Below, piece by piece: positions 46,491-55,693 of a stretch of DNA of 64,000 nt. The first letter of the stretch is position 1. Each line of letters begins with the position of its first letter. Source of the DNA: Rhodobium gokarnense (GTDB lineage: Bacteria; Pseudomonadota; Alphaproteobacteria; Rhizobiales; Rhodobiaceae); the NCBI RefSeq assembly GCF_025961475.1, contig NZ_JAOQNS010000001.1, positions 372,001 through 436,000 on the forward strand, in the 5' to 3' direction. The position numbers were made by a program, and so were the translations under genes. The notes under the pieces were generated by a model. That model did not search any database, had not been told where the DNA came from, and saw only the letters and a program-made list of their open reading frames with translations.

Positions 46491-51230
<4,740 letters not shown>

Positions 51231-51922
51231 GGCTGCCCCTCCACTTCCTGACCATCCAAGGGCCGGCAGCGCTCTTCACGAAGACGTCCTGCCGGCCGAG
51301 ACCGAATTTACCCCTTGGCGCCGGGACACGAACAAGCCTGCCCCGACGCTTGCTGCAGGGCCGCGCTGCATGATCGGTCCAGCCCCTGCGGGTCGCGCCC
51401 TAGACTGGCGCGGCTCGAGCGACGAGACCGGCAAATGACCGCGGCTCTGTCGAAGAAGAACAATACCGGATGCCAGTACTGCTCCGATGGCATAAATGCC
51501 GTCCGGTGCATCTTTTTCCGACCGGGCCCCGGCTTCGTTTGCCTCATCCGCGGGGTTCCGGCGGTCCGATGCGTCAGGACGTTTTCCCAATTCCTCGACG
51601 GCGAAAACCGGGCCTGCCGCGGTAACTGGGACAGTATTCCTGTCCTATTCCGGAAGTCTGACATTGCCAGATTTCCGGCGGTTGAGCAAGATGCGGCAGC
51701 ACGTTAACTGTGTGAGATATTCCACAACGCGCAGCCGACCAGTGGCCGCGCCCATTATTGTGCCGATGTCGTCACGCGCGCGTGAACTGGCCGAAAGCCG
51801 CTCTGACATCGCTTTGATTTCCACTTGATGGATGGCCTCTCCACATTGTCGGGCAGCGGTCCGAGGCGCATTGCCGCCGGTCCGTTTGCCGCATTTCGAC
51901 ACTCGAACAGAGGTTTTCTCCC
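51231..51922. other. 692-base gap between divergent gltB and the bufferin operon; contains a 14-bp palindrome
   Basis: No open frame here looks real on either strand. The gap must hold the gltB promoter (minus) and the bufA promoter (plus). Structure seen: an inverted repeat GGCAT-AA-ATGCC at 51489-51500, and a perfect palindrome TCACGCGCGCGTGA at 51773-51786, 137 bases before bufA. I could not find a convincing ECF-type or sigma-70 promoter for bufA by eye. Confidence 0.5.
51773..51786. promoter_or_regulatory. 14-bp perfect palindrome upstream of bufA
   Basis: TCACGCGCGCGTGA is self-complementary over its full length. It lies 137 bases upstream of the bufA start and far from gltB, so an operator for the bufferin operon is plausible. 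The sequence could also be a chance GC-rich palindrome. Confidence 0.4.
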
Positions 51923-52225
51923 ATGACCGCATCCCCCAAGACCTTCTCCGCCGCCATCCTTGCCGGCGCTGTTGCCACGGCCATCTCGGCCGCCGCCGTC
52001 GTCCAGCCGGCGTCCGCCGCCGAGCAGGTGAAGTGCTACGGCGTCTCGCTGGCCGGCGAGAACGACTGCGCCGCCGGGGCCGGCACCTCCTGCGCCGGCA
52101 CCTCCAAGGTCGACTACCAGGGCAACGCCTGGAAGCTGGTGCCGAAGGGCACCTGCGAGACCACCGAACTGCCCGAGGGCCGCAAGGGCAGCCTTGAGCC
52201 GCTCAAGCGCGACGTGCCGGCATAA
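51923..52225 (+). CDS. bufA: Bufferin precursor peptide (DUF2282)
   Basis: The 100-residue product has a Sec signal (residues about 1-32, cleavage near PASA) and a mature part with exactly four cysteines: Cys38 (VKCYGV), Cys49 (ENDCAAG), Cys57 (GTSCAGT) and Cys78 (KGTCET). This is the DUF2282 pattern of bufferins, ribosomally made peptides first described in Caulobacter whose central cysteines are turned into thiooxazole rings by an MNIO enzyme and which bind copper. The next three genes are the matching maturation genes. Modification here is inferred from family and context. Confidence 0.92.
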
Positions 52226-52261
52226 GCCGCCATCCGGAACCGTCACGCATTGGGGGGCAGC

Positions 52262-53176
52262 ATGACCCTGGCATTTGACGCCGGCCCTGCGGTGCGGGGC
52301 AGACAGAGCGACCCGATCCCGGCCTCGGCCGGGGTCGGGCTGAAGCCGCAGCACGGCCGCGAGATCTTCGAGACGCCGCACGACATTGGCTTCTTCGAGT
52401 TCCACGCCGAGAACTACATGTGTGCCGGAGGGCCGCCGCACCGGCTGCTTTCCGCCGTGCGGGAGCGGTTTGCCCTCTCCATGCACGGGGTCGGGCTGTC
52501 GATCGGGGGCGAGGGACCGCTCGACCGGGAGCACCTTCAACGGCTCGCCGATCTCAATGACCGCTACCGGCCGGAACTGTTTTCCGAGCATCTCGCCTGG
52601 TCGAGCCATGGCGGCACGTTCTTCAACGACCTGTTGCCGCTTCCATATAACGCAGCGACGCTTCAACGGGTCGCAGCCCATATCGACGAGGTCCAGGCGT
52701 TCCTCAACCGACGGATGTTGCTGGAAAATCCGTCGAGCTACGTGACGTTTTCGCAAAGTACCTGGGCGGAGACCGACTTCCTCGCCGAACTTGTCCGGCG
52801 CACGGGCTGCGGGCTGCTGCTCGACGTCAACAACGTCCATGTCTCCGCCGCCAACCAGGGTTTTGACGCGCTTTCCTATCTGGAGGCGTTTCCGCTCGAT
52901 GCCGTCGGCGAGATCCACTTGGCCGGCCACGCCACGGAGACGGAGGCAGACGGCAGCCGCGTCCTCATCGACGCCCATGACCGAGCCGTCGCCGATCCCG
53001 TCTGGGCGCTCTACGGGGCGGTGCTCGACCGCACCGGCCCGGTGCCGACGCTGATCGAATGGGACAACGACGTGCCGGCGTTTCCGGTGCTCGCCGCCGA
53101 GGCGGCGCGGGCGGCGGCAGTGCTCGAGGCCCATGGCGGCGGGGTCGTGACCGCGCAACGCGCTGCCGGGGTCTGA
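52262..53176 (+). CDS. bufB: Multinuclear non-heme iron-dependent oxidative enzyme (DUF692), bufferin maturation
   Basis: The 304-residue protein is a TIM-barrel of the MNIO (DUF692) family, which uses two or three iron ions to oxidise peptide cysteines. Likely metal ligands are His75 ([12 protein letters not shown]), His110 ([11 protein letters not shown]), Glu155 (LLENPSSY), Asp188 and His193 ([15 protein letters not shown]), His219 (EIHLAGH), Asp237/His239 (IDAHDRAV) and Glu266 (LIEWDND). The ATG at 52262 follows a GGGGGG stretch. It lies 36 bases after bufA and 1 base before bufC. Confidence 0.93.
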
Positions 53177-53177
53177 G

Positions 53178-53921
53178 ATGGAGCAGGAATTCGCCGCCGC
53201 ATTGCTTGACCCGGACCGCTCGGCGCCAGCCGGCCTCGGGGCGCGGCCGACGCGCCTTTCCATCCATCGCAACAATGTGGTCTCCGGTCTCGTCGACCAT
53301 CTGGCGGCAATCCTTCCGGCCGCCTCGCGTATCGTCGGCGAGGACTTCTTCCGCGCCGCCGCCGGCGTCTTCGTGCGGGCCGCGCCGCCGTCCTCGCCGT
53401 TGATGTTCGCCTATGGCGCGGGCTTTCCGATGTTCCTGGAAGGCTTTCCCCCAGCCAAAGGCGTTGCCTATCTCGCCGATGTGGCGCGGTTGGAATGGGC
53501 CGTCTATGACGCGCTCCATGCGGCCGACGCGGCACCGCTCGATCCGAACGCGCTCGCCGATGTGCCGCCGGAGGGGCTCGACAGCGTGCGCTTCCGCTTC
53601 CATCCGGCTACGCGCGTCATCGTTTCTGGCTATCCGGTGGTCAGCCTCTTTCGCGCCAATCGTGGGGCCGATCCGGACGGCCCTTTGAAACTTTCAGCCG
53701 AGGGGGAGGGGGCGCTGGTGACGCGGCCGGAGGTGGAGGTCGCGGTGCATGCTGTCTCGCCGGCAACGGCAGCGTTTTTCGCCGCGCTTCAGGACGGCGC
53801 ACCGCTCGGGCCGGCCGCTGCCGCCGGCCTTCAGGCCGATCCCGCCTTCGACCTTGCCGCAAGCCTTTCCCTTCTTCTCACCACCGGCGCTGCAACGGCG
53901 CTCGATTATTTCAAGGAGTGA
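53178..53921 (+). CDS. bufC: DUF2063 protein, bufferin maturation partner
   Basis: The 247-residue protein is the DUF2063 partner that accompanies DUF692 enzymes and is thought to bind the precursor peptide. The N-terminal domain has LSIHRNNVVSGLVDHLAAIL and FPAASRIVGEDFFRAAAGVF-like text, and YLADVARLEWAVYDALHAAD follows. The C-terminal part resembles a peptide-recognition domain. It is sometimes annotated as a DNA-binding protein; the position between bufB and DoxX makes the maturation role more likely. Its end is 5 bases before the DoxX start. Confidence 0.9.
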   Translation: MEQEFAAALLDPDRSAPAGLGARPTRLSIHRNNVVSGLVDHLAAILPAASRIVGEDFFRAAAGVFVRAAPPSSPLMFAYGAGFPMFLEGFPPAKGVAYLADVARLEWAVYDALHAADAAPLDPNALADVPPEGLDSVRFRFHPATRVIVSGYPVVSLFRANRGADPDGPLKLSAEGEGALVTRPEVEVAVHAVSPATAAFFAALQDGAPLGPAAAAGLQADPAFDLAASLSLLLTTGAATALDYFKE

Positions 53922-53926
53922 TTGCC

Positions 53927-54502
53927 ATGCTCGCCCGCCTTGTTGCCCTTCAGGAACGGGCCTTCGCCGCGCTTGAGCGCGCCCTCGGCCCCTCGGTCCT
54001 GCCGCTCATCGCCCGGCTCGTCTTTGCCTCCGCGCTGCTCCTCTATTACCTCAACTCCGCCTACACCAAGGTCGGCTCGGGCTTTCCGGAGATGTTCGTG
54101 CCCCAGGTCGGCGCCTATGCGCAGATCGTCCCGAAGGTCGCCGAAGGCGCCGGCTACGACGTCTCGCAGATCGCCTTCTTTCCCTATGGCCTTATCGTCT
54201 GGGCCGGGACCTATGCGGAATTCTTCCTGCCGGTGCTGATCGTTCTCGGCCTCTTCACCCGCCTTGCCAGCCTCGGCATGATCGGCTTCATCGTCGTCCA
54301 GAGCATCGTCGACGTCACCGCGCACGGGCTCGATGCCGCGACCATCGGCCTGCCCTTCGACCGCTTCCCGGACGGCATGATCGCCGACCAGCGGCTGTTC
54401 TGGGTGTTCGTCCTCGTCGTCCTCGTCCTCCGCGGCGGTGGACGGCTGTCGCTGGACGGCTTGCTGGCACGGCGCGAACGGTCCACCGCCCAGCCCTGGT
54501 AG
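53927..54502 (+). CDS. DoxX family membrane protein of the bufferin operon
   Basis: The 191-residue protein has four hydrophobic segments of the DoxX/DoxD type: LIARLVFASALLLYYLNSAY, FFPYGLIVWAGTYAEFFLPV, LASLGMIGFIVVQSIVDVTA and LFWVFVLVVLVLRGGG. A DoxX protein is the usual fourth gene of bufferin operons, where its role is not settled (it may serve redox or quinone chemistry in the membrane). A GTG at 53918 overlapping bufC is possible; the ATG at 53927 follows AAGGAG at 8 bases and is preferred. Confidence 0.9.
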   Translation: MLARLVALQERAFAALERALGPSVLPLIARLVFASALLLYYLNSAYTKVGSGFPEMFVPQVGAYAQIVPKVAEGAGYDVSQIAFFPYGLIVWAGTYAEFFLPVLIVLGLFTRLASLGMIGFIVVQSIVDVTAHGLDAATIGLPFDRFPDGMIADQRLFWVFVLVVLVLRGGGRLSLDGLLARRERSTAQPW

Positions 54503-54628
54503 GATGCGGCGCGAATGGCGGAATTGCCGCACCGCCGCAAAAATCGTCGCCCCGGGAGCCTCGCCGACCTTGCCAACGGCCGGCGCGGCTGGCATGTCTC
54601 CGGCTTCCATGTTTGTACGAGAGCCGTA

Positions 54629-55693
54629 ATGTTTTTCGCCAGCGACAACTGGGCCGGCGCGTCGGAAAAGGTCGCCGAGGCGCTTGCCGCGGCAGGCGCC
54701 GGACCGGCCCCGGCCTATGGCAATGACGAGGTGACGACGGCCGCCGCCGCGCGATTCTCGGAGATCTTCGAGCGCGACGTCGCGGTCTATTTCGTCGCCA
54801 CCGGCACGGCCGCCAACGCGCTGGCGCTCGCCTCCGCAACGCCGGCCGGCGGCATCGTCTTCTGCCACTCCGAGGCCCATATCGCGGTCGACGAATGCTG
54901 CGCCCCGGAGTTCTTTTCCGGCGGCGGCAAGCTCAATCCCATCGCCGGTCCTGCCGGTCTCCTGACGCCGGAGGGCTTTGCCGAGGCGCTCGCAAAGGTG
55001 CCGGACGGCGATGTCCACCACGGCCGCGTCGCCGCCGTCAGCCTCAGCCAGGCCACGGAAGCCGGCACGGTCTACGACACCGCCGACGTCGCCCGGATCG
55101 CCGACCTTGCCCATGGCCGCGGCATGACCGTCCACATGGACGGCGCGCGCTTTGCCAATGCGCTCGTCGCAACGGGGCAGACACCCGCCGAGATGACCTG
55201 GAAGGCCGGCGTCGATGTGATGTCCTTCGGCGCGACCAAGAACGGCTGCTGGTGCGCGGAGGCCGTCGTCTTCTTCGATCCCACACGCGGCAGCGATTTT
55301 CCCTACCTGCGCAAGCGCGCCGGGCACCTCTTTTCCAAGAGCCGGTTCGTCGCTGCCCAGTTCCTTGCCTATTTCGACGACGACCACTGGCTGGAGAACG
55401 CCCGCCACGCCAACGCCATGGCGGCGCGGATTGCGGCGGGCATCGATGCGGCCCCCGCGGCGCGGCTTGCCTGGCGGCCGCAGTCGAACGAGGTCTTTGG
55501 CATCTTCACCGACGAGGCCCTCAGCCAACTGTCTGCCGCCGGCATCGACGTCCACCAGTGGCCGTCCCATGCCGCGCCCGGGTCGGACGGTCCCAATGCG
55601 GGCGAAAAGCTCGTCCGGCTGGTGACGAGTTTCCGCACAACCGAAGACGAGGTGTCGCGTTTCGTCTCGGAGGTGTCTTTAATAGCTGCGTAG
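54629..55693 (+). CDS. Low-specificity L-threonine aldolase (PLP-dependent beta-eliminating lyase family)
   Basis: The enzyme cleaves threonine or allo-threonine to glycine and acetaldehyde. The 354-residue protein has the fold-type I pattern: FASDNWAGASEKVAEAL at the start, ATGTAANALALAS, MTVHMDGARFANALV and the PLP-binding Lys204 in SFGATKNGCWCAEAVV. The ATG at 54629 lies only 126 bases after DoxX on the same strand, but there is no functional link to the bufferin genes that I can see. Confidence 0.92.
   Translation: MFFASDNWAGASEKVAEALAAAGAGPAPAYGNDEVTTAAAARFSEIFERDVAVYFVATGTAANALALASATPAGGIVFCHSEAHIAVDECCAPEFFSGGGKLNPIAGPAGLLTPEGFAEALAKVPDGDVHHGRVAAVSLSQATEAGTVYDTADVARIADLAHGRGMTVHMDGARFANALVATGQTPAEMTWKAGVDVMSFGATKNGCWCAEAVVFFDPTRGSDFPYLRKRAGHLFSKSRFVAAQFLAYFDDDHWLENARHANAMAARIAAGIDAAPAARLAWRPQSNEVFGIFTDEALSQLSAAGIDVHQWPSHAAPGSDGPNAGEKLVRLVTSFRTTEDEVSRFVSEVSLIAA

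Follow-up and report, generated by a model that had tools for sequence, protein, structure and literature searches.

Putative CenR operators, and no SigF/NrsF switch, at a bufferin 1 operon of Rhodobium gokarnense

The core of a bufferin 1 cluster consists of the genes for a precursor, an MNIO enzyme, a DUF2063 protein and a DoxX protein (PMC12452194). How such operons are activated when no sigma/anti-sigma pair accompanies them is a question to which the literature searched gave no answer, and it arises for a 64-kb stretch of DNA from R. gokarnense (the window, in the following), which contains an operon of this kind. The new point, read from the promoter sequence, is that the bufA promoter of the window lacks the usual sigma-factor switch and possesses helically phased sites in agreement with the recognition sequence published for CenR, a regulator of the cell-envelope stress response in Alphaproteobacteria. 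Bufferin synthesis in R. gokarnense probably belongs to the CenKR envelope-stress regulon.

The original prediction was a bufferin-type operon with the gene order DUF2282-DUF692-DUF2063-DoxX, and the open reading frames and the Pfam and NCBIfam assignments agree with it. The four genes (Table 1) follow each other with gaps of 36 (bufA-bufB), 1 (bufB-bufC) and 5 bases (bufC-doxX), other possible upstream starts being a TTG at 52250 for bufB and a GTG at 53918 for doxX, and they are intact, as had been noted, with no frameshift or internal stop seen in any of the four. In Pfam, BufA (DUF2282, PF10048, 9e-25), BufB (MbnB_TglH_ChrH, 6e-105) and BufC (DUF2063, PF09836, 5e-20) lie above the curated cut-offs, as does DoxX (PF07681, 1.3e-5) with 26.2 bits against a cut-off of 23.6, and in NCBIfam the equivalog model MNIO_BufB (NF050167) recognises BufB with 386 bits, where 310 bits are required. 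The four-cysteine DUF2282 pattern and the metal ligands of the MNIO that had been claimed are also there: BufA has exactly four cysteines, in the arrangement C38-X10-C49-X7-C57-X20-C78, all of them invariant in 22 homologues, and the alignment of BufB with solved MNIOs (3BWW, TglH and MbnB) identified the ligand motifs H75, E109-H110, E155, D188, H219, D237-H239 and E266. The N-terminus of BufA, inspected by eye, shows a basic start, a hydrophobic stretch and ASA-AE, features of a possible Sec-type signal peptide. The structural model of BufA (pLDDT 54) was too poor for use; the BufC model (pLDDT 92.6) is closest in fold, among solved structures, to TglI, which is the partner of the MNIO TglH in TglHI, and its matches to TbiB1, an RRE protein, were weak. 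BufC is the DUF2063 partner (PME type 1, a type with an RRE-like second domain) that belongs to a bufferin 1 cluster, the DoxX gene is present as well, and the cluster in the literature (PMC12452194) has the same four parts in the same order and the same cysteine pattern. The window operon falls within the published bufferin 1/captophorin class and is ordinary in its make-up.

Table 1. Genes and promoter elements of the bufferin 1 operon (window positions)
Feature	Position	Strand	Remarks
CenR-like box 1, TCACGCGCGCGTGAA	51772..51786	+	-151 to bufA; best matrix score, exact core match
CenR-like box 2, TGACATCGCTTTGAT	51804..51818	+	-119 to bufA; exact core match, conserved in relatives
Conserved TTGATTTCC with third half-site (TTGAT-N6-TTGAT)	51814..51829	+	feature of sigma-free bufA promoters
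Possible -10 element CACATT, weak	51842..51847	+	inferred; CA at constant distance in aligned promoters
bufA1	51923..52225	+	DUF2282 precursor, 100 aa; Cys38/49/57/78
bufB1	52262..53176	+	MNIO enzyme, 304 aa; ATG start 52262
bufC1	53178..53921	+	DUF2063 partner protein, 247 aa
doxX	53927..54502	+	membrane protein, 191 aa; ATG start 53927

The products of such clusters have been grouped as captophorins, and 5-thiooxazoles are supported for them (PMC13097082). In the bufferin of Caulobacter, the thiooxazoles arise from the two central cysteines and the outer pair is joined by a disulfide, so that by analogy Cys49 and Cys57 are in the right positions for the modification. The BufA1 product may thus carry thiooxazoles at these two cysteines and bind copper.

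It had been pointed out from the sequence that the window contains no sigF/nrsF pair and that control may differ from that in Caulobacter. Both points have held up: there is no such pair in the 64 kb, the whole-genome search found no NrsF in R. gokarnense, nor was one found in its two congeners, and the bufA promoter has CenR-like boxes, not a sigma-F promoter (GTAAC-N16/18-CGAA), which was not found near the window bufA. The nearest SigF match in the R. gokarnense genome is a distant ECF factor with 30% identity. Among the 80 nearest MNIO loci and 30 more from relatives, whose neighbourhoods were typed, the pair is present in 41 of 106 typed loci and absent from the other 65, one of which duplicates the window locus; about half of the nearest relatives lack it. 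The two labels, sigF-linked and sigma-free, are strongly clustered on the BufB tree, with 6-7 changes versus about 33 in shuffles, and a sigma-F promoter (GTAAC-N17/18-CGAA) is found in 17/41 sigF-linked versus 2/65 sigma-free promoters. The gene gltB adjoins 34 of the loci, all of which lack sigF/nrsF, and no member of the sigF-linked set (0/41); the window locus belongs to this gltB-adjacent, sigma-free group. Its conserved neighbourhood (46491-55690) comprises gltB on the minus strand, bufABC-doxX and, beyond doxX, a gene of the beta-eliminating lyase family, which is probably an L-threonine aldolase. No regulator was recognised among the recurrent neighbour genes of the sigma-free loci.

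Exact matches to the core pattern TSAC-N6-KTGAW occur only twice on both strands of the 64 kb, at 51772 and 51804, with a chance expectation of about 1.8 per 64 kb. The two boxes are 32 bp apart, which is three helical turns, and box 1 has the top score of 127,972 window positions with a matrix that was derived from 31 CenR sites in the literature. They form a putative CenR operator upstream of bufA, of the form that is found in the CenKR regulon.

The operator was found without prior knowledge of CenR. When spaced 4-mer pairs in promoters were counted in an unbiased way, the leading pair was TCAC-N6-GTGA upstream of bufA2 (6/12) and TCAC-N7-TGAT upstream of sigma-free bufA1 (17/57); at sigF-linked bufA1, GTGA-N5-GTAA and its relatives lead and TCAC-N6-GTGA occurs in 10/39, the expectation being about 0.1 in each of the three cases. 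The combination in the sigF-linked promoters places the box directly 5' of the sigma-F -35 element and suggests a joint control of these promoters by CenR and sigma-F. The aligned upstream regions of the three congeneric genomes share one conserved block, and this block, TTGATTTCC with GTCAC before it, lies about 80-120 bases 5' of bufA in many sigma-free loci, the exact TTGATTTCC being present in 23/65 sigma-free and 0/41 sigF-linked loci. When 61 genomes were searched with a sequence model for the bufA1 element, only bufA promoters matched at E<1e-3. A 15-base pattern by itself gave mainly unrelated matches with two mismatches, and a weak second R1 match in R. gokarnense (C3:332147) was set aside, as it lies within a long reading frame that is conserved in the congener G002.

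An independent test used a matrix whose sole source was the 31 published CenR sites of R. sphaeroides, with the 95% level of random stretches as threshold. Matches above this level were obtained for 45/64 sigma-free bufA1, 11/13 bufA2, 16/41 sigF-linked bufA1 (about 40%) and 8/21 cenR promoters. The opposite strand of the bufA promoters scores too, because the box is near-palindromic. Among representatives, for which the loci were thinned to <72% BufB identity, 25/36 sigma-free bufA1 promoters have the box versus 0/34 gltB promoters of the same loci (Fisher p 1e-10, although p-values of this kind are too small since related promoters are not independent), and the box is present in 8/15 representative sigF-linked bufA1 promoters. 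In several sigF-linked bufA promoters (L050, L055, L078, L042 and others), WCAC-N6-GTGA lies about five bases 5' of GTAAC. The phasing recurs as well: of the 15 box pairs that are not more than 70 bp apart, 12 have a spacing of 31-33 or 64 bp, several of them coming from one four-box array, and R. gokarnense (G000) and G002 are near-identical. The array belongs to the congener G001, where boxes at -218, -186, -154 and -122 follow each other in 32-bp steps, counted from a start codon that was assigned by rule, as in all relatives. In other alphaproteobacterial orders the box was found in 7/19 sigma-free and 0/7 sigF-linked bufA promoters, and it is thus not universal.

The name of the regulator comes from a second promoter. 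Exact matches to the triple repeat TSAC-N6-KTGAW-N6-KTGA number three, one and four in the genomes of the three congeners; two of these matches belong to bufA, and in each genome one lies just 5' of an orthologous OmpR-family response regulator gene, where the surrounding bases have diverged between the congeners. This OmpR-type regulator is single-copy in 57/61 genomes of the order. In S. meliloti, CenR acts via AGTCACTCCAACGTGACT (AGTCAC-TCCAAC-GTGACT), directly 5' of the srlA -35 element (PMC9561847), and in R. sphaeroides the CenR sites have the form TGA-N8-TGA and are mostly located just 5' of the -35 element, with ACACGAGCGCGTGAG (ACAC-GAGCGC-GTGAG) at the promoter of cenR, which is autoregulated (PMC9275681). 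The conserved regulator is therefore named CenR here as a putative assignment, made from the site, the autoregulation, the near-universal single copy and the OmpR family rather than from a protein alignment, and with this name R. gokarnense has a cenR-type gene whose own promoter carries the operator too. CreB-, CusR- and PhoB-like regulators had been considered first and were dropped once the cenR promoter and the published CenR sites matched. Among the published CenR targets are dsbC, msrA and genes for cytochrome c maturation, and the authors link CenR to oxidative and disulfide stress (PMC9275681), which fits a periplasmic copper-buffering peptide. A Caulobacter OpgH paper that touches on CenKR contains no CenR site information, and no publication with both CenR and bufferin or DUF692 terms was found in a search that covered few subscription journals. 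To our knowledge, no tie of CenKR to copper has been established.

Similar sequences and neighbours were seen elsewhere. The gene of the CenR-type regulator is followed by one for a cyclic-nucleotide-binding protein of 166 aa (G000:C3:54657-55866, L206), a pairing that exists in all three congeners. A CenR-like triple repeat lies just 3' of groEL (G000:C6:166762, G002:C32:26129), with half-sites kept and spacers changed between the species, and in another genome (G041:C1:1743823, L165) a CenR-like CTCAC-ATCCAT-TTGAT with a further TTGAT precedes a gene that encodes an unknown protein of 303 aa and is close to a probable NAD kinase gene. A near-identical CTTTGATTTCAANCTGT occurs at three places of the R. 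gokarnense genome (C5:218053, C6:217602 and C8:110066) and also in G002.

The R. gokarnense genome has one DUF2282 gene and a second MNIO gene at a separate locus; in one genome of the order (G059), four DUF2282 genes were found. The second MNIO gene is part of a bufferin 2 operon (G000:C4:22827-24044; L002, L166) that encodes BufA2, of 88 aa with six cysteines, BufB and a DUF2063-type partner, with BufA2 and BufB above the NCBIfam cut-offs and no DoxX seen within the stretch examined. Its promoter contains a CenR-like CTGAC-AGGAAC-GTGAA at about -126/-127.

Taken together, envelope or periplasmic stress would act through CenK to give CenR~P, which would bind the two boxes and activate the promoter just downstream, and thereby expression of bufABC-doxX. 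BufA1 would be synthesised with an N-terminal Sec signal, BufB and BufC would convert Cys49 and Cys57 to 5-thiooxazoles in the cytoplasm, and the modified BufA1 would be exported, form the Cys38-Cys78 disulfide and chelate copper in the periplasm, with an accessory membrane role for DoxX. Bufferin 1 and bufferin 2 would be co-induced by damage to the periplasm or envelope, which copper causes, along with dsbC, msrA and other CenR targets. We regard this full explanation, a bufferin 1 operon without SigF/NrsF that is activated by CenR~P via two boxes and co-induced with bufferin 2, as likely.

The operator could also be real and serve another response regulator of the OmpR/PhoB family, one whose half-site resembles that of CenR, which controls cenR as well and which might respond, for instance, to copper or redox state. 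Half-sites in this family are short and alike, the CenR box itself is short and near-palindromic, TTGATTTCC, the form seen at bufA1, has a higher specificity than the general CenR box, and the common site at the cenR promoter could reflect co-regulation rather than autoregulation. Yet the matrix from ChIP-supported CenR sites alone ranks the bufA boxes top in the window, and CenR autoregulation through such a site has already been published (PMC9275681); we consider another regulator rather unlikely. If, on the other hand, the boxes were chance occurrences or relics, the operon would be constitutive or under an unrelated copper sensor, and many bufferin genes indeed have no attached regulator (PMC12452194). 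The core pattern alone is expected about 1.8 times per 64 kb, but both matches of the window lie within 47 bp of one another, upstream of bufA, and the enrichment across genera and the 32-bp phasing also speak against chance, which is improbable as an explanation. Most improbable is that the distant ECF factor encoded elsewhere drives the operon in trans: the genome does have this one weak ECF match, but it has no NrsF, there is no GTAAC-N16/18-CGAA near bufA, and that promoter occurs mainly in sigF-linked loci.

With CenR as the named regulator and two boxes that are defined to the base, the proposal is directly testable. If it is true, a large RiPP family would be tied to the main envelope-stress system of Alphaproteobacteria, which would suggest that bufferins answer periplasmic damage and not copper alone. 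For the wider generalisation we see even chances: in many Alphaproteobacteria, bufferins 1 and 2 would be effectors of CenKR, itself an essential envelope-stress system, and not members of metal-sensor regulons, 32-bp phased CenR arrays would be the general bufferin operator, and SigF/NrsF would be an added lineage-specific layer directly 3' of the box.

Among the known systems, the bufferin 1 operon of Caulobacter vibrioides, CC3254-3257 (bufABC-doxX), has the same four genes in the same order and a four-cysteine DUF2282 precursor, but is controlled by SigF/NrsF via GTAACC-N16-CGAA (PMC3511200), whereas the window operon has neither and possesses CenR-like boxes instead. SMb20530-20527 of S. 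meliloti is likewise a DUF692-DUF2063 operon in an alphaproteobacterium, but ECF-controlled, by RpoE7/EcfR7 (ECF16) (PMC6180224), and the window locus is of the gltB-linked, sigma-free group. The captophorins fontiphorin, oxazolin and gonophorin resemble the window operon in having an MNIO, a DUF2063 partner and a predicted 5-thiooxazole product, but their precursors contain EGKCG repeats where the window precursor is a DUF2282 protein. The bufferin 2 operon of the same genome differs in its six-cysteine precursor, versus four cysteines in BufA1, and has the CenR-like box in common with the window operon. The CenKR regulon of R. sphaeroides and S. meliloti has the same operator form, the site 5' of the promoter, an autoregulated cenR and periplasmic targets; its published targets, including the R. 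sphaeroides CenR regulon table (PMC9275681), list no bufferin gene, whereas the window operon is a bufferin operon.
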